DNA of 64,000 nucleotides from Thermus sediminis. GTDB taxonomy: Bacteria; Deinococcota; Deinococci; Deinococcales; Thermaceae. The position numbers were made by a program, and so were the translations under genes. Location: the NCBI RefSeq assembly GCF_003426945.1, contig NZ_QURO01000004.1:186001-250000 (forward strand). Reading direction: 5' to 3'. Under the pieces are notes generated by a model. It searched no databases. It saw only the letters and a list, made by a program, of their open reading frames with translations, and was not told where the DNA came from. Position 1 is the stretch's first letter. Each line of letters begins with the position of its first letter. Below, one piece after another: positions 25,670 to 44,138 of this stretch.

Positions 25670-27011
25670 GGTCGTGTAAGGAATTCTGTGTAAGGGTCCG
25701 TGTTCAATAGGGGGGCACACCTTGGAAGGAGGAGGTGCCCCATGGACCGGGATACCTTGCGGAGCCTGCTGAGGGAAGCGGTGCGGGAAACGGTAGCCGA
25801 AGTCCTACAAACAGTCCTGGAGTTGGACCGGACGGCGTTCCTCCAGGCCCACGGGGGGCGCAGGAACGGCTACTACCCCAGGAGGCTGGAGACCGCCTTC
25901 GGCCAGGTGGACCTGCGGGTCCCCAGGGATCGGGAAGGCCGGTACCACCCCGCCTTCCTCAAACCCTACGCCCGCCGCCCCGTGGACGTGGGAGGTCAGC
26001 CGAAGGCTACGTTCCAGTGGCCGTGGCCCTTTATGCCGCCGGGGTCAGCCAGCGTAAAGCGGCCGAGGGGATGCGCCTGCTCTTGGGCCACCGCTACTCC
26101 CACGAGACCTTGAGCGCCTTGACGGACGAGGTCTTGGGAGCGGTGGAAGCTTTCCGCAGGCGGCTTTTGCCCGAGGAGATGGCCTTCGTCTACCTGGACG
26201 GGCTTTCCCTCAAGGTCCTTAGGGACGGAGAGGGGATCGTACGGGAAACCGTCTACGTGGCTTTGGGGATCGCCCCTGGTGGGGAGAGGCGGGTCCTGGG
26301 ATTCTGGCTGTTGCCGGCGGAGAGCGCCTTAGGGTGGGAGGGGGTCTTGGGGGAGCTCTGGCAGCGGGGCTCGCGGCGAGTCCTGCTCTTCGTCACCGAC
26401 GGGCTACCCGGGCTTCCCGAGGCCATCCAGAGGGTCTACCCACAGGCGGAGTGGCAGCGGTGCGTGGTGCACGGGTTGCGATGGAGCCTGTCCCAGGTGC
26501 GGGCGCGGGACCGGGCCCTGTTGGCCGAGGACCTGAGGCGGGTGTACGGGGCGGAGGGCCGGGAGGAGGCGCTCTGGGCTCTTGAGGGGCTGAGGGAAGC
26601 CTGGGGTTCGCGGTACCCGGGGGTGGTGGGGCTGTGGGTGCAGGACTCGGGGGCGTTCTTGCGCTTCTATGGGTACCCCAAGGTCCTTTGGCCGTACTTG
26701 CGGAGCACCAATCTGATGGAGCGGTTTATCCGGGAGGTGCGGCGGGGAACGAAGGTGCGGGGTCAGGCCGAAGGCCTATCTTGCCCACAAGTTTCCCAAC
26801 GAGGCGGCGGTGTACAAGCTTCTTTACTTGGAGTCGGAAAGGCAAGAGGGGAGGTGGGCGGAGCGGCTGCTTCGCGAAGCGAACATCTTGCGGCTCAAGG
26901 GGTTCTCGGGTCAGCGGAGCTACCTTGAGGCGAGGGAGACGCTGGAGAAGATGCTTCAGGAGCGGTATGCCCCCCGTACACAGACCCTTACACAAAACTC
27001 TTGACACGACC
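25670..27011 (+). mobile_element. IS256-family insertion sequence, copy 2
   Basis: A 1342-bp inverted copy of the element at 18506-19847, bounded by GGTCGTGTAAGGAATT at the left and the complement of GGTCGTGTCAAGAGTT at the right. GGTAAGGG follows at 27012-27019, and its reverse complement flanks copy 1. The left flank (25662-25669, GGTAGGCA) does not match any other junction. The element interrupts an IS4-like transposase whose 5' part now lies beside copy 1. Confidence 0.9.
25742..27004 (+). pseudogene. IS256-family transposase, same two frameshifts as copy 1
   Basis: It starts at ATG 25742 and reads the same three-frame protein as copy 1: N-terminal DNA-binding region, then YLDGL, VTDGLPG and STNLMERFIRE in the second frame, then AYLAHKFPNEAAVYKLLYLE in the third. 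Two differences from copy 1 were noticed: one replaces Thr by Ala in LETTFGQ and one falls in LQAHGG without altering the protein. The shared frameshifts predate duplication or reflect a common calling error. Confidence 0.85.
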
Positions 27012-27883
27012 GGTAAGGGAGATGGTGGCTACCCTGCCCTCCCACCTCCAGCGCCCCTTCCACCAGGCCGAAGCCCTCTACCGCTTCCTGGCCAACCCCC
27101 GGGTGGGGGCCGAGGCCCTCCTGGAGAGGGTGTGCCGGGAGAGCGTCCTGGCCCTGGAGGGGATAGCCCGGGTGGGGAGGAAGCGGGAGACCGGGTATGA
27201 GCTCCTGACCGCGCTGGGGATGGATGTCCAGGGGCGGCTGGCCCTGGGGTACGCCCACCTGGTGGCCTACGGGGAGCGGGGGTTTGCCAGCCTGCCCCGG
27301 GAGGTGGAGCGGGCCATTGCGGGGGCGCGGGGGGTTCTTGGGGGGGAGGGGCGGCGGCTGGTGTACGTGGCGGACCGGGGTTTTGACGACCGGAAGGTGT
27401 TTGGGCAGGTGCTGGGGTGTGGAGCTTGGGCTGGGATGGAGGGAGGTGGAGGGGCGGAGGCTTCATCTGGTGGTGAGCTGGATACCGGCTTTGGGGAGGC
27501 GGGGGGAGTGGTGGCTTTTGACCAGCTTGGAGGTGAGGGGGGAGAGGGAGGCGCTGCGGGTGGTGGAGATGTACCGGAGGCGGTGGGGGGTGGAGGAGTT
27601 TTTCCGCCTTCTGAGGGCGGGGTTGGGGCTTGAGAGCTTTCAGGTGCGGGGGCTTAGCCGGATTCGCAAGGTGGTGGCTGTTTTGCTGGGGCTGGCGGTG
27701 TTTCTTTGGGAGGTGCGGCGGTCTGGGGGTGTCTTGGAGGGCCTCCTTTTGCGGCTTGGGGGAAAGCTGGGGATAGCCAGTGAGCGGGATGGTCCCTACC
27801 TGCTCTTGCGGGGCTTGGTCCGCCTGCTCAACTACGAGGTCACCAAGGAGGCCTTGGAAGAGGAGGAGGGAAGTTTTGGGTAA
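27012..27883 (+). pseudogene. 3' part of an IS4-like transposase
   Basis: It continues the fragment at 19848-19990: VREMVATLPSHLQRPFHQAE, the DDE Asp in VYVADRGFDDRKVFGQVLG, a frameshift near 27420, then RLHLVVSWIPALG and the YREK-type motif YRRRWGVEEFFRLLR with the catalytic Glu. The ending is LLNYEVTKEALEEEEGSFG. With its 5' part it would make about 335 residues, a normal IS4-like length. The terminal repeat at 27877-27890 closes the element. Confidence 0.8.
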
Positions 27884-27890
27884 AGTCCTG
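27877..27890 (+). repeat. Terminal inverted repeat of the IS4-like element (right end)
   Basis: TGGGTAAAGTCCTG reading outward, identical to the copy at 20032-20045. It overlaps the last codons of the transposase. Confidence 0.7.
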
Positions 27891-27942
27891 TATTACCGAC
27901 CACCTTGCCTAAGGGGTTTTCCCGTGCTAGGGTCAAGGTCAT

Positions 27943-29508
27943 ATGTGGCGGGTGCTGGTTTCCGATGAGATGCGGTTGGGAGGGGCGAGGTACCCCGGGG
28001 TCCTCCTGGACTACCGCCCGGGGATTGGCCGCGAGGAGCTTCTGGAGATCATCCCTAGCTACGATGCCCTCATCACCCGGAGCCGCACCCAGGTGGACGC
28101 GGAGCTTTTAAAGTGGGGCAAGCGCCTCAAGGTGGTGGGCCGGGGCGGCGTGGGGGTGGACAACGTGGACCTCGAGGCCGCAAGCCGCCTGGGCATCCTG
28201 GTGGTCAACGTGCCCGAGGCCAACACCCGCTCGGCGGCGGAGCTGGCCTTCGGCCTCCTCCTTTCGGCCGCCCGGGGCATCGCCCTTTCCGATCGAAAGA
28301 TCCGTGCTGGGGAGTGGGACCGGAAGTTTTTGGGCCTGGAGCTTAAGGGCAAGACCCTGGGCATCATAGGCCTGGGCCGAATCGGGAGCCAGGTGGCCCG
28401 CTTCGCCAAGGGGTTTGAGATGCAGGTCCTGGCCTACGACCCCTACATCCCCAGGACCCGGGCGGAGAGCCTCGGGGTAGAGCTTCTGGAGCACCTGGAG
28501 GACCTCCTCCGCCAGAGCCACTTCCTCACCGTCCACACCCCCCTCACCGAGGAGACCCGGGGGATGATCGGCAGGCGGGAGCTCTACCTCCTCCCCCGGG
28601 GGGCGGTGGTGGTCAATGCGGCCCGGGGGGGGATCGTGGAGGAGAAGGCCCTCCTGGAAGTCCTGGAGGAGGGGCACCTCTTCGCCGCCGGCCTGGACGT
28701 CTTCGCCCAGGAGCCCCCGCCCAAGGACCACCCTCTCCTCCACCACCCCAAGGTGGTCCTCACCGCCCACCTGGGGGCCAACACCCTCGAGGCCCAGGAG
28801 CGGGTGGGGGAGGCCATCCTGGAGCGGGTGGTGCGCACCCTGGAGGGGGACCTCTCCTACGCCCTGAACACCGGCTTTGACCCTGAGGCCCTGGAGGCCT
28901 TAAGGGGCTTCCTCCCCTTGGGGGAGGCCTTGGGGAAGCTTCTGGCGCAGATTACCCGGGGACGGCCGGAGATCCTGGAGGTGCACTTTTTGGGCCAGTA
29001 CGAGAAGGACCCCGAGCCGGTGGCTAGCGCCGTGGCCAAGGGCCTCCTCTCCCGGGTCCTGGGCCCTGAGGCGGTGAACCTGGTCTCCGCCCGGCCCCTC
29101 CTGAAGGACCGGGGCATAAGGCTCATCACCCTCAGGGAGGAGGAGGCGGGGGAGTACACGCGGCTTTTGGAGGTGCGCCTCACCACGGACCAGGAAACCC
29201 GCCGGGCCCGGGGGGTGGTCATGGGGAGCAAGCCCCGGCTGGTGGGTATTGACGACTACACCCTTGAGGTGGTGCCCGAGGGGTACATGCTGGTCTGCGT
29301 CAACTACGACCGCCCGGGGGTGGTGGGCCGGGTGGGGACCCTCTTGGGCGAGGCCGGGGTCAACATCGCCGGGATGCAGCTGGGGCGGGACGTGCCTGGG
29401 GGGCGGGCCCTTTTCGTCCTCACCGTGGACGAGAAGCCAAGCCCCGAGGTGCTGGAGGCCCTGAGGGCCCTTCCCGTCCTGGAGCGGGTGGACCTGGCGG
29501 AGCTTTAG
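27943..29508 (+). CDS. serA: D-3-phosphoglycerate dehydrogenase SerA
   Basis: A 521-residue NAD enzyme that starts serine biosynthesis. It has the substrate-binding domain with VVGRGGVGVDNVDLEAASR, Rossmann motif GLGRIGSQVARFAKG, catalytic Arg in VNAARGGIVEE and His in LTAHLGANT. The intervening ASB domain (~315-440) and a C-terminal ACT domain (MLVCVNYDRPGVVGRVGTLL) follow, as in long type SerA regulated by serine. ATG at 27943 is preceded by AAGGTC. It lies 52 bp past the end of the IS4-like element, so its own promoter region may have been altered. Confidence 0.95.
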   Translation: MWRVLVSDEMRLGGARYPGVLLDYRPGIGREELLEIIPSYDALITRSRTQVDAELLKWGKRLKVVGRGGVGVDNVDLEAASRLGILVVNVPEANTRSAAELAFGLLLSAARGIALSDRKIRAGEWDRKFLGLELKGKTLGIIGLGRIGSQVARFAKGFEMQVLAYDPYIPRTRAESLGVELLEHLEDLLRQSHFLTVHTPLTEETRGMIGRRELYLLPRGAVVVNAARGGIVEEKALLEVLEEGHLFAAGLDVFAQEPPPKDHPLLHHPKVVLTAHLGANTLEAQERVGEAILERVVRTLEGDLSYALNTGFDPEALEALRGFLPLGEALGKLLAQITRGRPEILEVHFLGQYEKDPEPVASAVAKGLLSRVLGPEAVNLVSARPLLKDRGIRLITLREEEAGEYTRLLEVRLTTDQETRRARGVVMGSKPRLVGIDDYTLEVVPEGYMLVCVNYDRPGVVGRVGTLLGEAGVNIAGMQLGRDVPGGRALFVLTVDEKPSPEVLEALRALPVLERVDLAEL

Positions 29509-29777
29509 GGAGCCGTGCCTGGCGGCCTCGCCTCCTCTATGTCAACAAACTTTGGGCTTGCCTTGCAAAGATCAGGACGACGGGTGTATATCTCCCGCTT
29601 TGGGGCCCCTACCCCAAATGAACCGCCTGATGGGTAAGCAAGGCTTGGCTCGCAGAGAGGCAAGCCCCAAGGAGGTGCTCGCCCACAGCCTAGCCCTGGC
29701 CCAAGAGGTGGCTCCACCCACCCCCAAAGGCAAGCCTGGCCCTTCTCCTTTACCGTGCCTTCTTCCGCCTCATGCCA

Positions 29778-29840
29778 CCCCATGCTGGCTTGGGCCAGCA
29801 TGGGGGCCCCGGCAGAAGGTTCCCGAGAGGCTTTTCTGAG
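29778..29840 (+). repeat. 63-bp repeat with internal palindrome, copy B
   Basis: It matches 20079-20141. Here the palindrome is perfect: CATGCTGGC, TTG, then GCCAGCATG. It lies in the 506-bp gene-poor stretch between serA and the GbsR-type gene, just before a transposase-like fragment. Confidence 0.6.
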
Positions 29841-29848
29841 AGGACCTG

Positions 29849-29962
29849 ATGGGGAAGCCTCGGACGGCCATGGCGCGGGCGCTTTTGGAGCTCATCGCCT
29901 ACGGCCTCATGGTTCTTCTCTCCCTTCTCCCACCCCCTCCGGGGTACAAGGCAATTTACTAG
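29849..29962 (+). pseudogene. Possible transposase C-terminal fragment
   Basis: A 37-codon frame, MGKPRTAMARALLELIAYGL followed by a hydrophobic stretch and stop, with Thermus-like codon use. It resembles the tails of some bacterial transposases, but the piece is too short to assign. The rest of 29509-29970 shows no supportable gene. Confidence 0.3.
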
Positions 29963-29970
29963 GCAAGCCT

Positions 29971-30007
29971 GTTTTGTATTGACAAAACCTTCAAAACAAA
30001 CTACTAT
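29971..30007 (+). promoter_or_regulatory. Promoter with overlapping palindromic operator for the GbsR-type gene
   Basis: TTGACA (29979-29984), 17-bp spacer, TACTAT (30002-30007). The start codon ATG 30015 lies 7 bp after the -10, so the mRNA should be leaderless. A perfect 7-4-7 palindrome, GTTTTGT-ATTG-ACAAAAC (29971-29988), covers the -35 and is well placed for a repressor, probably the encoded regulator itself. Confidence 0.75.
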
Positions 30008-30014
30008 GGTTCCT

Positions 30015-30458
30015 ATGGACCCCGCCCTCCAAGCTTGGGTGGAGGAGACCGCCCTCCTCTTTGAGGGGGTGGGCCTTCCCCGGATGGCGGGCCGGGTGCT
30101 GGCCTGGCTCCTGGTGGCCGATCCGCCGGAGCAGACCCTCCGGGAGATGGGGGAGGCCCTGGGGGTGAGCAAGGGGGCTCTGAGCCCGGCCCTGCACCTC
30201 CTCCTCCGCCTGGGCCTGGTGGAACGGGTCCGCAGGTCCGGGGAGCGCTCCGACCGGTATTTGGTGCGGCACGGGGCTTGGAAAAGGCTCCTCATGGAGA
30301 AGGCCAGGGGGATGGGCCTCTACCGGGAGGCGGCGGAAAAGGGGCTTGCCCTTCTCCCTCCGGAAAAGGGGGAGCGGCTTCGGGAGATGCACCGCCTCTA
30401 TGCCTTTTTTGAGAAGGCCCTTCCCGAGCTTTTGCGGCGCTACGAGGAGGAAGTATGA
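30015..30458 (+). CDS. GbsR/MarR-family winged-helix regulator
   Basis: A 147-residue regulator. The leaderless ATG at 30015 is chosen from promoter geometry. The winged helix includes TLREMGEALGVSKGALSPALHLLLRLGLVERVRR (helix-turn-helix near residues 45-70) and a wing with RSGERSDRYLV. The flanking N- and C-terminal helices probably mediate dimerisation, as in GbsR-type proteins. Its stop overlaps the start of the first exporter permease as ATGA, so it is the first gene of the exporter operon and probably represses it. Confidence 0.85.
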   Translation: MDPALQAWVEETALLFEGVGLPRMAGRVLAWLLVADPPEQTLREMGEALGVSKGALSPALHLLLRLGLVERVRRSGERSDRYLVRHGAWKRLLMEKARGMGLYREAAEKGLALLPPEKGERLREMHRLYAFFEKALPELLRRYEEEV

Positions 30459-31639
30459 CCCTCTTGCGCCTCGCTTGGCGGAACGTGTTGCGCCAGAGGC
30501 GGCGCACGCTTCTCCTTTCCCTGGTGTTGGTCTATGTGACCGTGGCTGTCCTCTTCCTGCTGGGCTTTCTGGACGGCTATGGGGAAAGCCTGGTGGAAAG
30601 CTACGCCGCCTACGTGGAGGCCCCGGTGGTGGTGGCCCCCAGGACCTTTTTTGAGGATCCCGACCCGGAGAACGGCCTCGCCACCCCCCTGCGGGTGGAC
30701 CACCCCAGGGTCCTGGCCCAGACCCCCAGGCTCAGCCTCCCCACCCTCCTCCGTTCCCCCTACCGGGCCCTTGGAGGCATCCTCCTCGGGGTGGACCCGG
30801 AAGGGGAAAGGGCCCTTTCTCGGGTGCCTACCAAGGTGGCGGAGGGGAGGTGGCTTAGGGCCCCCGGGGAGATGGTCCTGGGCCACCGCCTGGCGGAGCG
30901 GCTGGACGTGCGGGTAGGGGAGAGGCTTTTGGTGGAGACGGGGAAGGGGGCCTTGGGCCTCACCGTGGTGGGCTTCGTGAAGGCAGGGGTTTCCAACGTG
31001 GACTTCGCCGGGGCTTACGTCCACCTGGCCGACGCCAGGGCCCTTTCGGGGGTTTGGGCTACCCACCTGGCCCTGAAGGTCAGGCGGGGACAGGAGGAGG
31101 GGGTGGCCCAGGAGCTGAACCGGACGCTTCTCGAAGGCCTCGAGGCCCGGGGGGTCTGGGACCTCATGGGTCCCATCCGGGCCGACTACGAGGCGAACCG
31201 CCTCTTCTTCTTCCCCCTTTTGGGCCTCTTCCTCCTCCTCGCCGCCCTGGCCGTGGTGAGCACCGCCTACGTGAGCGTGCGGGAGGGGCTTAGGGAGTTT
31301 GCCGTGGCCGAGAGCTTGGGCCTCACCCCGGGAAAGCTTGCGCTCCAGGTGGCCCTCGAGGCCGCCATAGCCAGCGGCCTCGGCTTCCTCCTGGGCCTCC
31401 TCTTGGGCTACGCCCTCCTCCTTTACACCGCCACCCACGACGTCTTCGGCCCCCTCATGCGCCTTTCCGGGGAGCTCCTCCCCGAGGCGGGCCTAGCGGA
31501 GCACCTCTACACCGCCGTGCGGCCCAGCTACGCCCTCTTCGCCTTTTTGGTGGTTCTCTTCTCTGCCCTGCTGGCCCTCCTTTTCCCCGGGCGGCTCCTT
31601 CTCAGGACGGAGGCTTCCCGCTACCTAAAGGAGGCGTGA
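30455..31639 (+). CDS. FtsX/MacB-type ABC transporter permease
   Basis: A 394-residue permease of the MacB/LolCE class. One membrane helix follows the N-terminal LLRLAWRNVLRQRRRTLLLS, then a periplasmic domain of about 220 residues. Three helices form the C-terminal FtsX domain (LFFFPLLGLFLLLAALAVVS, then ALEAAIASGLGFLLGLLLGY, and YALFAFLVVLFSALLALLFP). Such proteins drive lipoproteins or other envelope substrates out of the membrane with an ATPase of the LolD type, encoded downstream at 33541. Confidence 0.88.
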   Translation: MTLLRLAWRNVLRQRRRTLLLSLVLVYVTVAVLFLLGFLDGYGESLVESYAAYVEAPVVVAPRTFFEDPDPENGLATPLRVDHPRVLAQTPRLSLPTLLRSPYRALGGILLGVDPEGERALSRVPTKVAEGRWLRAPGEMVLGHRLAERLDVRVGERLLVETGKGALGLTVVGFVKAGVSNVDFAGAYVHLADARALSGVWATHLALKVRRGQEEGVAQELNRTLLEGLEARGVWDLMGPIRADYEANRLFFFPLLGLFLLLAALAVVSTAYVSVREGLREFAVAESLGLTPGKLALQVALEAAIASGLGFLLGLLLGYALLLYTATHDVFGPLMRLSGELLPEAGLAEHLYTAVRPSYALFAFLVVLFSALLALLFPGRLLLRTEASRYLKEA

Positions 31640-31641
31640 CC

Positions 31642-32332
31642 ATGAAAAAAGCCCTTTGGCTCCCTTTTCTCCTGGCCCTGGTCCTGGCCCAAACCCCCCT
31701 GGAGAAGCTGAAGGCTGCCTTGGACCGCCTCCGGGGCCCGGCCCACGAGGGGGTGTACCTCATCCGGGTAGAGCGGCCGGGCTCGGAAAAGGTCTACCGC
31801 CTCAAGGTCTACACCGACGGGGAGCGGGCCCACCTTCGGGTCCTGGAGCCCAAAGCTGAGGCAGGGCTCACCTACCTCTCCTTGGGGCAGGACCTCTACC
31901 TCTACGACCCTCGGCTGGGCCGCACCCTTCGTCTGCCCCCCTCGGGAAGGGGGAGCGCTTCCTAGGCTCCGACCTCACCTACCAAGACCTCATGGGTCGG
32001 GACTTGGAAACCCTCTTTGAGGTGGCGGAGGCCCCAGGCTTCCTCCTCCTCACCCCCAGGCCCGGAGCCCCCACCCCCTATGGGAAGGTGGAGGTTCACC
32101 TGAAGGAAGGCTTCTTGGAGCGGGTGGTCTACTACGACCAGAGGGGGCAGGCGGTGAGGGAACTTCTCCTTAAGGGGTACCAGGGCCAGGGGGGGCCTTC
32201 CTCCCCCGGGAGAAGGAGCTAAAGGACCTCCTCCGCCCCGGCCACCGCACCCTCGTCCAGGTCCTGGAGGTCCGGGTGGGGCCGGTGCCCGAGCGGTGCT
32301 TCCAGCCTCTCTACTTGGAAAGGGGGTGTTAG
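31642..32332 (+). pseudogene. LolA-like outer-membrane lipoprotein-sorting protein, two frameshifts
   Basis: Starts MKKALWLPFLLALVLAQTPL (signal peptide) and continues as a lipoprotein-sorting-type beta-barrel: GVYLIRVERPGSEKVYRLKV, then in a second frame GSDLTYQDLMGRDLE and VEVHLKEGFLERVVYYDQRG, then in a third frame AFLPREKELKDLLRPGHRTL to TAG 32332. The shifts lie in a CCCCCC run near 31937 and a G run near 32188, and adding one base at each restores about 230 codons. This may be a sequencing error. The family binds lipids or lipoproteins in the periplasm next to Lol-like exporters. Confidence 0.8.
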
Positions 32333-32333
32333 G

Positions 32334-33530
32334 GTGCTCCGGATGGCCTGGCGGAACCTCTTCCGCGCCCCCGGGCGGAACCTGACCACGGGGGGCGTGG
32401 TGGCCCTGGTGGTCTTCCTCTCTTTGGTGTTCCTCTCCCTCTATGGAGGGGCCATGGACGCTTTCTTCCGGCTCCTCCTGGAGCGCACGGGCCACCTGGT
32501 GGTGCGGGTCCAGGGTTATGGAGAGAAGGAAAGCCTGGAGGATCTGGCCTTCCTCCCCCCGGCCCTGGAGCTTCCTTCTGGGGCCTGGGCGGAGGGGGTT
32601 TTGGAGGGGGCGGCTCTTCTTATCGCCGGGGAGCGGAGCCGCCCGGTCCTCCTCACGGGCCTCGAGGCCCAGGGCTTCGCCCGACATCAGAGGTTCTTGG
32701 TGGCTGGAAGGCTTCCTGCGGTCTCGGGGGAGGCCCTTCTCGGGGAGGCCTTGGCCCGGGCCCTGAGGGTGGGCCTGGGGGAGGAGGTGGTGGCCTACGC
32801 CCCTGGGGGGATGGGCCTCGGGGTCTACGCCTTCCGGGTGGTGGGGTTGTTGGATCTCCCGGAAACCTCCCTGGAAGTCCGCACCCTTCTGGTGCCTCTG
32901 GAGGATGCCCAGGCCCTCCTCCTCCCCGGGCGGGTGACCCGGCTGGAGGTGCGGCTCCCTGGGGTGGGGCTTTACGAGACCGACCCCTTGGAAGCTCTGA
33001 AGGAAGAGCTCGCCTCCCGCCTCCCCGGTCTGGCGGTGGAAACCTAGCTGGAGGCCAACCCCGCCTACGCCGCCGTCCTCCCCCTTTACGACCTGGTGAT
33101 GGCGGTCTACGTGGGCTTCTTCTTCCTCCTCGGGGGCCTGATCCTGCTCAACGCCCTCTACCTCTCTTTGGTGGAGCGGGTGCGGGAGTTTGGCCTTCTC
33201 CACGCCCTGGGCCTCACCGGGGGGCGGGTGGTGGGCCTGGTGCTCTGGGAGAGCCTCTTCCTGGTGGGGGCGGCAACCCTGGTGGGCCTGGGCTTGGGCC
33301 TTCTCGTCCACCTGGAGATGGCGGACGGCTTCCGCCTGCCCTCGCCGGGCTGGGTTTTGGAGCAGTATCGGGAGTTTGGCCTTCCGGAGGTCCTCTATGG
33401 GCGGCTTGGGGCGAAGGAGGTCCTCCTCACCCTGGGGTACGCCTTCGGGGTAGCCCTCTTGGCGGCCCTCTGGCCCGCCTGGGTGGCCTCGAGGCTGGAG
33501 GCGGTGGAGGCCATGCGCTACGTGCCCTGA
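32334..33530 (+). pseudogene. Second FtsX/MacB-type permease with in-frame TAG
   Basis: GTG at 32334 (or ATG 32343, MAWRNLFRAPGRNL) opens a permease with the same plan as the first: N-terminal helix, periplasmic domain, and C-terminal helices (YVGFFFLLGGLILLNALYLS, then VLWESLFLVGAATLVGLGLG, and a final one). TAG at 33045-33047 interrupts it after LPGLAVET; the same frame resumes as LEANPAYAAVLPLYDLVMAV. A single base change (for example TGG or CAG to TAG) explains it. Without readthrough, the product lacks its membrane core. Confidence 0.85.
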
Positions 33531-33540
33531 AGGAGGGGGT

Positions 33541-34224
33541 ATGCCTATTCTGGAAGCCAAAGGCGTGCGCAAGGTGTACCGGGGGGACGGGGTGGAGACC
33601 GAGGCCCTCCGGGGGGTGGACCTGAAGGTAGAGGCGGGGGAGTTCACCGCCCTGGTGGGCCCCTCAGGGAGCGGCAAGAGCACCCTCTTGCACCTCCTGG
33701 CGGGGCTGGACCTGCCCACAGAGGGGGAGGTCTGGGTTGGGGGGGTGGCCCTTTCCCGGCTTTCCTGCGCCCAGAGGGCCCGCTTCCGCCTGAAGAGAAT
33801 GGGCCTGGTCTTCCAGGCCTACAACCTCTTCCCCGTCCTCACCGCCCTGGAGAACGCCGCCTTCGTCCTGGAGGCTAGGGGGGTGCCCAAGGGGGAGCAG
33901 GAGCGACGGGCGCTTGAATTCTTGGAGGTCTTGGGCCTAAAGGAAAAGGCCCACCGCTTTCCCCGCCAGCTTTCCGGAGGGGAGGAGCAGCGGGTGGCTG
34001 TGGCCCGGGCCTTGGCGGCGGAGCCCCTCATCGTCTTGGCGGACGAGCCCACCGCCAACCTGGACTCCAAGACCGGCTTGGCCCTGATCGAACACATGAA
34101 GGCCTTGAACCGGGAGCGGGGGGTAACCTTCCTCTTCTCCACCCACGACCCCCGCCTCCTGGAGCACGTGGGCCGGGTGGTGCGCTTGGAGGACGGGCGC
34201 ATCGTGGGGGAGGAGTGGCGCTGA
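33541..34224 (+). CDS. LolD/MacB-type ABC transporter ATP-binding protein
   Basis: A 227-residue ATPase preceded by GGAGGGGGT. Walker A GPSGSGKST, Q-loop FQAYNLFPVLTALENAAF, signature LSGGEEQRVAVARALA (Glu replaces the usual Gln), Walker B LIVLADEPTANLD, and FSTHDPRL. This group energises FtsX-type permeases such as LolCE and MacB, which fits the two permeases upstream. The gene is intact although its neighbours carry lesions. Confidence 0.92.
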   Translation: MPILEAKGVRKVYRGDGVETEALRGVDLKVEAGEFTALVGPSGSGKSTLLHLLAGLDLPTEGEVWVGGVALSRLSCAQRARFRLKRMGLVFQAYNLFPVLTALENAAFVLEARGVPKGEQERRALEFLEVLGLKEKAHRFPRQLSGGEEQRVAVARALAAEPLIVLADEPTANLDSKTGLALIEHMKALNRERGVTFLFSTHDPRLLEHVGRVVRLEDGRIVGEEWR

Positions 34225-34541
34225 GGGCCTGGGCTTTGGTGGTCCTCCTCCCCCTGGCGGTGGCCTAGGGGTACCAGATTGGGGTCTACGGCCTTGGGGG
34301 GGCTGTCCTCCACCTAGGGCTTTGGGGCGGCTTTACCCCCTTGCCCTGGGCCGCCCTTCTCCCGGTCTGGGAGAGGTGGGGGTGGTGGGGGGGAGGGGGG
34401 AGCCTCACCTGGTACGGGGAGGCCTTGGTGGAAGGGATAGTCCCCACCGGGACGGCTTCGGCCTGCCTTTTGGGGTTTGGTGAGGGGCCGGTTGGCCTAG
34501 GGGCTTATCAACCCGGGGGGTGGTTTGGGGGTTGGTTCTAG
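34215..34541 (+). pseudogene. Small membrane protein remnant with in-frame TAG
   Basis: A frame overlapping the ATPase stop reads VALRAWALVVLLPLAVA, TAG (34266-34268), then GYQIGVYGLGGAVLHLGLWG and PLPWAALLPVWERWGW. The overlap, coherent codons and hydrophobic segments suggest a last operon gene for a small membrane protein, now stopped early. After about residue 60 the sequence becomes low-complexity Gly/Trp. No family recognised. Confidence 0.4.
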
Positions 34542-34552
34542 CGGAGACTTTT

Positions 34553-34585
34553 AGCACGAGCGCTTAAAATCGTGAAAATAATCAC
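34553..34585 (+). repeat. 33-bp A/T-rich repeat, copy A
   Basis: It starts AGCACGAGCGCTTAAAATCG and ends TAATCAC. It matches the reverse complement of 54483-54515 at 27 of 33 positions. It ends at the stop codon of the minus-strand gene 34582. It is A/T-rich against the G/C-rich background. Confidence 0.5.
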
Positions 34586-35010
34586 CTAAGCTTTCCGAAG
34601 GCGTAGACTAACTCATCCCCCCTCCGCACCACCAAAAGCAGGGCGGGCCTTCCCAGGCCATCATTGAGAACATACTTGGTGCGCACCTCCCCATCCACCG
34701 TGCGCTCCTCCTGCCTCTCCAGGAAATACCCTGCCGCAGCGAAGGCGGTAAGGACCTGTTGGATGAAGGCAGCGTGCAGCTGGCTGGCGAGGCCCCGGGC
34801 AGCGTAGACCTCGAGGTTGTACCCCCGCGCCTCGGGGAAGCGGGCCAGGATGGGCTCCGGGCTTCTGGCCCTGTAGCTGCCCTGGGGCAGGCGGACGGCT
34901 GGGTCCAGGCTCGAGGCCACCGCCGCCACCGCCGTCACCTCCACCAGGGTCTGGGCCAGTCCACCTCCCAAAAAGGCCAGGAGCGTTAAGGCGACCTTCC
35001 ATTGGGCCAT
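34582..35010 (-). CDS. Hypothetical small secreted protein
   Basis: A 142-residue protein with signal peptide MAQWKVALTLLAFLGGGLAQ; ATG at 35010 is chosen for this reason. The mature part has predicted helices (SQLHAAFIQQVLTAFAAAGY) and a C-terminal strand-rich section ending ALLLVVRRGDELVYAFGKLR. No named family. It is transcribed away from the Liv operon and shares a 73-bp intergenic region with it. Confidence 0.7.
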   Translation of the reverse strand: MAQWKVALTLLAFLGGGLAQTLVEVTAVAAVASSLDPAVRLPQGSYRARSPEPILARFPEARGYNLEVYAARGLASQLHAAFIQQVLTAFAAAGYFLERQEERTVDGEVRTKYVLNDGLGRPALLLVVRRGDELVYAFGKLR

Positions 35011-35025
35011 GTCCCCATGATACCC

Positions 35026-35054
35026 TTGCGTTCCTTTAGCCCTCGTGTTATATT
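35026..35054 (+). promoter_or_regulatory. Promoter of the first Liv-type operon
   Basis: TTGCGT (35026-35031), 17-bp spacer, TATATT (35049-35054). Ribosome binding site GGAAGGAGGAG follows before ATG 35084. Confidence 0.65.
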
Positions 35055-35083
35055 CCCGGCAAACCAAGCGGAAGGAGGAGCGC

Positions 35084-36271
35084 ATGATGAAGCGTAGGGA
35101 GTTTTTGCGGAAGCTGGGCGTGGGGTCCTTGGCGGCGGTGGGCATGCCCTATATCGCCACCGCCCAGGCCAGGCCGGTGAGGGTGGCCCTTCTCCTTCCC
35201 CTCACTGGCCCTTTCGCCTTCGCGGGCAACGCAGCGCGGGAAGGGTTTGTGGACGCGGCAGAGTACGTGAACGAAGTCCTAGGAGGCATCGGTGGGCGCA
35301 GGCTAGAGCTCATCGTGGAGGACACGGGCTACGACGTGGCCAGGGGCACGGCGGCCTTCAACCGGGTCCTTGCCCGGGAGCGGCCCGAGGAGCTCCTCTT
35401 CCTCTATGGGGACTCCACCGGCCTCTCCAAGGCCCTGGCCCCGGAGATCACCCGCCTGGGCCTGCCCTACTCGGCCACGAGCTTTGCCAACGAGCTGGCC
35501 GATCCCAAAACCTACCCCACCATCTTCGTCTTCGGCCCCACCTACGATGACATGATGGAGGCCCTCTTGCGCCAGGTACGCCTTCAGAGGGGACGGGCCA
35601 GGATCGCCCTGGTCTACTCCAACACCGAGTTCGGGCGCGACCCCATCCCCTACGCCAAGGAGCGGGCCAGGGCCTTGGGCATGGAGGTGGTCCACGAGGA
35701 GGTTACTCCCCCGGCCTTCACGGACGCCACCCCCGTGGTCCTGAACCTCCGGCGGGCCAACCCCGACTTCGTGATCCTCCAAGGCTATGCCCTCTCCGTG
35801 GAGCCCCTGATCCTCAGGGTTGCCCGGGAGCAGGGCCTTAGGGCCCAGTTCATGGGCACCTACTACTCCGCCGAGCTGGCCCTCATCCAGCGGGCCGGGC
35901 CCGCCGCCGAGGGCTTCACCGTCACCTACCACAACCCCTACTGGTACGATACCTTGGCCCCCGTGGTGGAGGAGATGCGTAGGTTCCGCCAAAGGAAGGG
36001 CCGGGACGTCTCCTACCGCACCACTTACTACATGGGCAGCCTGGCCGTGATCTTCGGGCTGGCCGAGGCCATGCGCCGTGCCGCCCAGGCGGGCAGGCTT
36101 ACCCGGGCGGGGGTAGTGGAGCACCTGGACAAGATCGGCGACTACAACGCCATGGGGCTTGTCCGGAGCTACCAGTTCGTGAACCACCGCCTGCCCCACA
36201 CCAAGCTCTACCGGGCGAGCGTGCGGGAGGGGCGTTTCAACGCCATCACCGACTGGGTCAGCCTGGCCTAG
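35084..36271 (+). CDS. ABC transporter substrate-binding protein, branched-chain amino acid (LivK) type
   Basis: A 395-residue periplasmic binding protein of the Leu/Ile/Val family. The N-terminus, MMKRREFLRKLGVGSLAAVG, is a twin-arginine type signal, unusual for this family but common in Thermus. The mature part has RVALLLPLTGPFAFAGNAAR, the hinge GDSTGLSKALAPE and YTNTEFGRD-like blocks (ALVYSNTEFGRDPIPYAKE). The substrate is not deducible; the acyl-CoA ligase in the operon suggests a carboxylic or aromatic acid rather than an amino acid. Confidence 0.88.
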   Translation: MMKRREFLRKLGVGSLAAVGMPYIATAQARPVRVALLLPLTGPFAFAGNAAREGFVDAAEYVNEVLGGIGGRRLELIVEDTGYDVARGTAAFNRVLARERPEELLFLYGDSTGLSKALAPEITRLGLPYSATSFANELADPKTYPTIFVFGPTYDDMMEALLRQVRLQRGRARIALVYSNTEFGRDPIPYAKERARALGMEVVHEEVTPPAFTDATPVVLNLRRANPDFVILQGYALSVEPLILRVAREQGLRAQFMGTYYSAELALIQRAGPAAEGFTVTYHNPYWYDTLAPVVEEMRRFRQRKGRDVSYRTTYYMGSLAVIFGLAEAMRRAAQAGRLTRAGVVEHLDKIGDYNAMGLVRSYQFVNHRLPHTKLYRASVREGRFNAITDWVSLA

Positions 36272-43199: not shown

Positions 43200-44138
43200 C
43201 TAGAGGTCGGGTAGCCTCGAGGCCGCCTCCTTAAGCCTCTCCCGGGAGGCGTGGAGGTAGATCTGGGTGGTGGCGATGGACTCGTGGCCCAGGAGGTCCT
43301 TCACTGCATCCAGCTCCACCCCGCTTTCTACCAGGAGGGTGGCGTAGGCGTGGCGGAGCTTGTGGGGGGTAAGGCGCCTGGGGTCAAGCCCCGCCCGGAT
43401 GGCGGCCTCCCGGAACCTAGCCTCCACGTAGCGGGCGGAGGGTACCCGGCCCCGGCGCTTGCCCTGGGCAAAAGTGAATATATTCACATTTCCCTGAGGC
43501 GGTCCCAGCTCCAACAGGACGCCCTGGGCTGTCCGGGAAAGGGGCACCAGCCGCTCCTTATTGCCCTTGCCCACCACCCGCACGGCCACGGGATGCCCGT
43601 TTTCCTGCAGGATGTTGCGCCCCTTTAGGAGGAGGGCCTCGGAGATCCTCAGGCCCGTGCCGTAGAGGAATCGGGCCAAGGAGGTGAGCAAGCGGGCCTC
43701 CTTTTCCTGGGACAGGGCCTCGAGGAAGCGCCGGAGCTCCTCGGGGCTTGGGTGGAGGGGAAGCCGCCTCCCGGCCTTGGGCCGGCCGATCCCCTCGGTG
43801 GGGTCCTCCACGGCCTCGCCCCGCACCTGGGCCAGGTAGCGGTAGTAGCTCCTAAGGGCGGCCAGGAACCCCTGGACCCGCCTGGGGGCCCAGCGCTCCT
43901 CGAGGAGGAGGGCCCGCACCGCCTCGGGGCCTGGCGGGAGGCCCTGGGCCTTTAGGAAGCGGAGCCAGAGGGCCAGGTCCTGGAGGTAGCGGCGAACCCC
44001 CCGGGGGGAGTACCCCCGCTCCAGGAGGAGGTACTCCGCATAGGGGGCCAGGGGCAGAAGGGCCTCCGTGGGCTTTTTAACGCCGATGGTTTTCCATATA
44101 ACGGGGATGGCGGGTTCGGTCACGGGGGCATTATACAT
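43200..44138 (-). CDS. Tyrosine recombinase (XerC/XerD-like)
   Basis: A 312-residue integrase. N-terminal SAM-like domain (YAEYLLLERGYSPRGVRRYL) and C-terminal catalytic domain with Arg in GTGLRISEALLL, Lys in VGKGNKERLVPL, HKLRHAYATLL (His, Arg), LLGHES (His) and nucleophile Tyr in TTQIYLHAS. It may be the XerD-type enzyme resolving chromosome dimers. ATG at 44138 is the apparent start; TATAAT at 44130-44135 lies just inside it, so a leaderless GTG at 44123 (MTEPAIPVIW) may be the true start. Confidence 0.9.
   Translation of the reverse strand: MYNAPVTEPAIPVIWKTIGVKKPTEALLPLAPYAEYLLLERGYSPRGVRRYLQDLALWLRFLKAQGLPPGPEAVRALLLEERWAPRRVQGFLAALRSYYRYLAQVRGEAVEDPTEGIGRPKAGRRLPLHPSPEELRRFLEALSQEKEARLLTSLARFLYGTGLRISEALLLKGRNILQENGHPVAVRVVGKGNKERLVPLSRTAQGVLLELGPPQGNVNIFTFAQGKRRGRVPSARYVEARFREAAIRAGLDPRRLTPHKLRHAYATLLVESGVELDAVKDLLGHESIATTQIYLHASRERLKEAASRLPDL

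Follow-up and report, generated by a model that had tools for sequence, protein, structure and literature searches.

The solved protein 4NB5 is MmpR5 (Rv0678) of M. tuberculosis, and a fatty-acid ligand is described in it (excerpts of PMC11072239). According to excerpts of PMC10300004, the transcription start of MmpR5 seems to be directly upstream of its start codon, and the -10 element could be in TTTCAGAGTACAGTGAAA; DNA-binding assays indicate the same region. In B. subtilis, the OpcR operator overlaps the -35 element, which was read as steric hindrance, and that of GbsR is an inverted repeat rich in A/T whose half-sites are separated by 4 bp (excerpts of PMC7396694). Mj223 (1ku9) served as the template for GbsR models (PMC6207618, in excerpt). 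As for leaderless genes, a TANNNT located some 6-7 bp upstream of the start codon is given for about 30% of ORFs in Deinococcus-Thermus (PMC12340547, in excerpt). In the literature searched, which lay mostly outside subscription journals, neither the operator strings described below nor an MmpR5/GbsR regulator in Deinococcus-Thermus was reported.

The locus compared here with these systems lies in a stretch of 64,000 nucleotides of Thermus sediminis DNA, which is called the window. The initial annotation had placed the promoter TTGACA-N17-TACTAT 7 bp from the start codon of a regulator gene and the palindrome GTTTTGT-ATTG-ACAAAAC over its -35 element; both sequence and coordinates proved to be exact to the base. 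The features of the promoter and of the genes behind it are as follows.

29963-29965: outer left half-site position (mirror); GCA in the window strain, that is, half-site absent
29971-29988: candidate inner operator dyad GTTTTGT-ATTG-ACAAAAC, 7-4-7, in the TTY-N10-RAA register (sequence, motif scan, dyad-centre scores)
29979-29984, plus strand: -35 element TTGACA, inside the palindrome (promoter scan)
29994-29996, plus strand: outer right half-site position; AAA in the window strain
30002-30007, plus strand: -10 element TACTAT, 17-nt spacer from the -35 element, 7 nt before the ATG (30015)
30015-30458, plus strand: MarR-superfamily regulator, MmpR5 (Rv0678)-like, 147 aa (MarR_2 PF12802, 4.2e-10; 4nb5, E 3.5e-23)
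30455-31639, plus strand: FtsX/MacB-type ABC permease 1; start codon and regulator stop codon overlap as ATGA
31636-32331 (approximate limits), plus strand: LolA-like outer-membrane lipoprotein-sorting protein, frame broken; PF17131 on both pieces, each match under the curated cut-off
32334-33530, plus strand: ABC permease 2, with an in-frame TAG at 33045-33047
33541-34224, plus strand: LolD-type ABC ATPase (TIGR02211, 9.8e-66, 221 bits, under the equivalog cut-off of 308)

The window strain has a perfect inner dyad and lacks the outer left half-site. A second in-frame ATG at 30006 overlaps the -10 element; the orthologues begin at the position equivalent to 30015. A sigma-70-like promoter scan of 27000-36000 gave TTGACA-N17-TACTAT as its single hit (mean of the shuffles 0.5), and GTTTTGTNNNNACAAAAC at three or fewer mismatches matched once in the whole window, at the palindrome (mean of the shuffles 0.14). 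A perfect 7-bp inverted repeat as good as this one was present in 215 of 5000 local shuffles. With an arm length of 7 and a spacer of 0-8, the window contains 127 inverted-repeat hits, overlapping ones being counted separately, and two of these are AT-rich. The palindrome by itself is a modest claim, only moderately unlikely; the case for an operator is strong because the dyad is conserved across genomes, and not because of the palindrome alone. The second AT-rich palindrome of the window, GTGAATATATTCAC at 43474-43487, is also perfect and lies within a recombinase-like minus-strand ORF. The genome search for GTTTTGT-N4-ACAAAAC suggested in the initial annotation, carried out with up to two mismatches, gave one further site (C4:330111), which falls within an ORF with glycosyltransferase domains.

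The regulator was matched in 17 of 27 Thermus genomes, at full length in 15 and in pieces in two (G005 and G026); L003/L007 and L004/L019 are apparently the same two genomes, and each was counted once. GTTY-N4-TTGACNRAAC, that is, GTTY-N10-RAAC with the -35 element inside, stands before the orthologue in 14 of the 15 genomes, and the fifteenth promoter (G019) is diverged and has a poor site. By eye, all 15 promoters have a TAnnnT whose end lies 6-7 nt upstream of the ATG or GTG; further upstream, nothing was conserved across all of them. When every possible dyad centre was scored in this set, the claimed centre came out on top (4.92 vs 4.25 for the next). In the 27 genomes, the Thermus pattern had 17 exact matches, against two for the reversed control. 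Fourteen are at the orthologues that define the pattern, one is before the decayed regulator copy of G026, which played no part in the definition, and two are elsewhere (G001 and G014). In G026 (L056, L040), the putative operator is kept before the broken regulator gene and the permease-1 orthologue is absent; this locus is apparently a remnant of the regulator-exporter module. The exact letters of the 7-4-7 repeat were also considered as the basis of specificity. This was ruled out: among the 15 Thermus promoters, only that of the window strain has them. The palindrome originally described is the version of the window strain, and the rule of the family is TTY-N10-RAA, with the consensus nTTCAGTATTGACTGAAn.

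Homologues of the regulator were found in 50 of 111 Deinococcota genomes, and all 33 outside Thermus were examined. In a spacing test that did not place sites by a consensus but was chosen after the sequences had been viewed, TTY-N10-RAA occurred within 200 nt upstream of 31 of these 33 homologues (mean of the shuffles 7.7, maximum 13); the other two (L105, L113) have no site within this distance. A second peak was observed at a spacing of 19 (30 of 33; mean of the shuffles 8.4, maximum 15), which points to a further half-site. Spacings of 11, 14, 20, and 23 were found in 16-17 of the 33 each, above the maximum of the shuffles and far under 10 and 19, and all other spacings tested (2 to 23) were within that maximum. 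The phylum consensus is nTTCAGT-ATTG-ACTGAAn, and the site of Deinococcus actinosclerus is ATTCAGTCTTGACTGAAC. The pattern TTYAGTATTGACTRAA, which was read off the regulator promoters themselves, gave 32 matches with one mismatch in 31 of the 111 genomes; 26 are at the regulator's own promoter, and six are elsewhere, vs five for the reversed control.

The claimed centre was also the top one in a scan of 46 promoters (5.61 vs 4.59 for the next), an alignment from which L105 and L113 (no site above 8 of 16) were left out and whose inner columns are partly selected, since its sites were placed by similarity to the previously read consensus. Collapsing of identical sites left 32 distinct 18-mers and 44 distinct 53-mers. 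Positions 4 and 13 are paired in 24 of the 32 distinct sites, vs 18.7 expected (7 of 2000 shuffles). This is the only one of the nine dyad pairs clearly above the shuffles, which ignore relatedness. The small number of covarying pairs is partly due to the -35 element, which fixes one arm. With a single pair clearly above the shuffles, covariation was dropped as the main proof.

The putative outer half-sites are the newer element of this analysis. Among the 44 distinct promoters, 26 have TTY at offset -8 and 43 have it at +1; RAA occurs at offset 14 in 43 promoters and at offset 23 in 33. No other offset between -8 and 39 has either triplet in more than 15 promoters. Nineteen of the 44 promoters carry the two outer half-sites together, 21 carry exactly one, and four carry neither; at least one is thus found in 40. 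The half-site centres of the nested dyad are 9, 13, and 9 bp apart. In L100 and L104, which belong to one genus, perfect 15-bp arms surround ATTG to give a perfect 34-bp nested dyad, and a single compensatory pair distinguishes the arms of the two. TCACA is common to L100 and to the stretch preceding the M. tuberculosis 18-mer; this stretch was taken from a published primer (PMC9531458, in excerpt), and since the table prints both primers fused, the split between them is our interpretation. A 34-bp operator TTC-N6-TTC-N10-GAA-N6-GAA might accommodate two dimers, or one dimer with outer contacts. It might also be ancestral to the MmpR5-like regulators of Deinococcota and Actinobacteria, having been kept with the repressor when the exporter was changed. 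We regard this proposal as rather doubtful, and our estimate was lowered slightly because of the count of promoters having both outer sites.

The best solved protein for the regulator by sequence is 4nb5 (residues 2-145, nearly the whole protein, E 3.5e-23), which is also first for the Deinococcota homologue L100 (2.7e-27) and for the Nonomuraea homologue (3.4e-20). In a fold search with a monomer model (mean pLDDT 85.6; 3-sequence alignment), 4nb5 again came first, with a Z of 15.7, 143 aligned residues, 36% identity, and an rmsd of 6.1, followed by 5jbr with a Z of 14.9, which counts as tied, and Mj223 (1ku9) with a Z of 14.6. The predicted monomer seems to consist of a winged helix and a helical dimerisation part, as in 4NB5. 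This predicted fold alone does not set the regulator apart from other MarR relatives. Fold matches to RPC62, TFIIE, and TrmBL2 were read as the common winged-helix fold and not as a closer kinship. The description of the regulator as GbsR-type holds in a broad sense; as to the closest relative, it gives way to MmpR5 (Rv0678), the match to Mj223 (1ku9) being weaker (E 1.4e-4, Z 14.6). The NCBIfam model NF047500 (CudC/GbsR) gave 25.4 bits vs a cut-off of 218 and fails, and no choline or betaine genes are found within the operon. No mmpS or mmpL genes adjoin the window regulator; its neighbours are the FtsX/MacB permeases, the LolA-like gene, and the LolD-type gene. It is named MmpR5-like, and not an MmpR5 orthologue, because these neighbours are not mmpS/mmpL.

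The region described for MmpR5, TTTCAGAGTACAGTGAAA, contains TTC-N10-GAA in the same 18-bp frame and is identical to TTTCAGTATTGACTGAAA at 13 of 18 positions, a value reached by 27 of 200000 shuffles. The Thermus sites are less similar to the MmpR5 region, to which they are identical at 5 to 12 of 18 positions, and the window site at 7. Among actinobacterial homologues, TTTCAGCTTGTACTGAAA stands before the Nonomuraea regulator and TTTCAGAGATCTTTGAAC upstream of that of Streptomyces anulatus. Upstream DNA was read for seven actinobacterial homologues, out of 19 actinobacterial plasmid records found, and in five of the seven (L121, L122, L153, L154, L155) a convincing site was absent.

The regulator had been predicted to lead an envelope export operon, and comparative gene order and domain content support this. 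An orthologue of permease 1 (at least 72% identity) is present in 15 of the 27 Thermus genomes, exactly those with a full regulator. The five genes are in the same order in 14 of these 15 operons; in the exception (G003, L031), the ATPase was unmatched in the stretch examined. Outside Thermus, in the stretches read, a permease-1 homologue adjoins the regulator at 24 of 33 loci, and an ABC ATPase resembling LolD was found at six. Neither was found in the stretches read at three of these loci (L105, L113, L116). In the window, the two LolA-like pieces are mutually out of frame, and by eye the break is close to C and G runs; the remaining 14 Thermus operons have this gene in a single frame. Similarly, permease 2 has one internal TAG in the window strain and none in the other 14 second permeases. 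The broken gene and the TAG mean either that the operon of the window strain is decaying or that the assembly contains errors. It should be mentioned that overlapping, frame-broken ORFs at 25700-27880, upstream of serA, have by eye the appearance of two transposase remnants.

The leaderless layout first proposed for the promoter is supported by the sequence comparison, TACTAT being 7 nt before the ATG and TAnnnT recurring in relatives; transcription probably starts without a leader. A site is present in 31 promoters outside Thermus, and in 20 of these the distance from the end of TAnnnT to a start codon in frame is 6-7 nt. D. actinosclerus has TACGCT, 6 nt, ATG. In L116, the distance is 5 nt, and in L101 and L114 TAnnnT was looked for and not found. 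The eight promoters of family f5 have the same putative operator and no TAnnnT at that distance; their start codons are further off or were missed by the script, and seven of the eight leaders contain a Shine-Dalgarno-like motif. The leaderless layout is ordinary for the phylum and is not needed for the proposed operator control. It is not tied to the operator, because the f5 relatives keep the operator with a leader.

A regulon beyond the regulator's own operon was considered and rejected: with all patterns, the extra sites occurred at about the rate of the controls. With a looser Thermus pattern, 32 matches were obtained: 15 are at promoters of the regulator, counting G026, and the other 17 are elsewhere, as many as the reversed control gave. 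Since away from its own promoter the site occurs no more often than expected by chance, a single target operon is suggested, and the regulator would control only its own. Only one extra site stood out, a site with all four half-sites in G072 (L144, about 1492-1526). It coincides with the beginning of an ORF on the minus strand (588-1541), and an ORF on the plus strand, whose product by eye resembles a secreted or outer-membrane protein, begins about 100 nt after it. No regulator was found in this genome, which is 67% complete; the site is a possible extra target. Another dyad enclosing a -35 element, GGTTAGC-R-TTGACTAACC, was seen in three Thermus genomes (L060 G004, L074 G023, L081 G013). It precedes a 120-aa ORF that by eye resembles a RelE/HigB-type toxin-antitoxin gene.

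Autorepression, which the layout had been taken to predict, is supported by the comparative evidence in the form of a dyad over the -35 element and is very probably right. In our reading, an MmpR5-like local autorepressor would block the -35 element of its own regulator-ABC-exporter operon; we put the probability of this at about 0.85. From the dyad, its conservation and register, its rarity elsewhere, the operon linkage, and the protein kinship, all read from sequence, we infer binding, the direction of control, the dimer contacts, the transcription start, and the effector as follows. A winged-helix homodimer of the MmpR5 kind would read two TTC/GAA half-sites, 13 bp apart from centre to centre, and, lying over the -35 element between them, would keep RNA polymerase away. 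Further half-sites 9 bp outward, one or two in many relatives, may strengthen binding. Because the regulator gene heads the operon, regulator and exporter would be repressed together. Binding of the exporter substrate, probably lipid-like or amphiphilic, to the regulator might open the promoter, and transcription would then begin at or beside the start codon.

The conserved block might instead be a mere strong leaderless promoter, with the palindrome incidental to TTGACA and the AT-rich flanks. The perfect 7-bp inverted repeats in 215 of 5000 local shuffles are compatible with this, and the -35 and -10 elements do belong to the conserved block. However, TTY before the -35 element and RAA after it are conserved as well, and outside Thermus TTY-N10-RAA is found in 31 of 33 cases vs at most 17 for the spacings from 2 to 23 besides 10 and 19. 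In addition, few matches to the pattern occur at other places in these genomes. To our knowledge, no promoter rule demands TTY upstream of the -35 element or RAA after it. A promoter without an operator seems very unlikely.

Occupation of the dyad by a different transcription factor, the adjoining MarR-type protein working elsewhere, is given little credence here. AT-rich dyads are indeed used by many transcription factors, and that the regulator binds this one is what we infer. Nevertheless, the site travels with the regulator gene across the phylum, is retained in G026, where the regulator gene has decayed, and agrees with the region described for MmpR5, the closest characterised relative. 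The position of a site alone cannot give the direction of control, and a regulator bound to the dyad could activate, or act both ways depending on a ligand; but the dyad encloses the -35 element, an arrangement comparable to the steric hindrance described for OpcR (excerpts of PMC7396694), and MmpR5 is termed a repressor (excerpts of PMC10300004). Activation is considered highly improbable.

The local autorepressor is of interest for its operator geometry, which seems to be common to Deinococcota and a medically important actinobacterial regulator, and for the outer half-sites. The DNA rule TTY-N10-RAA around the -35 element, often with outer half-sites, locates the probable target in most of the homologues examined. 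The homologues of Thermus and its relatives, whose operator is conserved and sometimes perfectly symmetric, should be well suited to solving a structure of this regulator group on DNA and to a search for the natural effector.

When compared with known systems, the regulator is closest to MmpR5: it is nearest by sequence, MmpR5 has the TTC-N10-GAA frame at its own promoter, and MmpR5 regulates an efflux pump. The two differ in that the MmpR5 region is placed at the -10 element, whereas the Thermus dyad encloses the -35 element, and in that MmpR5 controls the MmpS5-MmpL5 pump, whereas the Thermus regulator leads an ABC exporter operon. GbsR and OpcR of B. subtilis are likewise MarR-type repressors of transport genes, but GbsR works as a downstream roadblock. 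Like the leaderless genes of Deinococcus-Thermus, the window promoter has a -10 element of the TANNNT form at 6-7 nt; unlike these, it adds a consensus -35 element that bears the putative operator.
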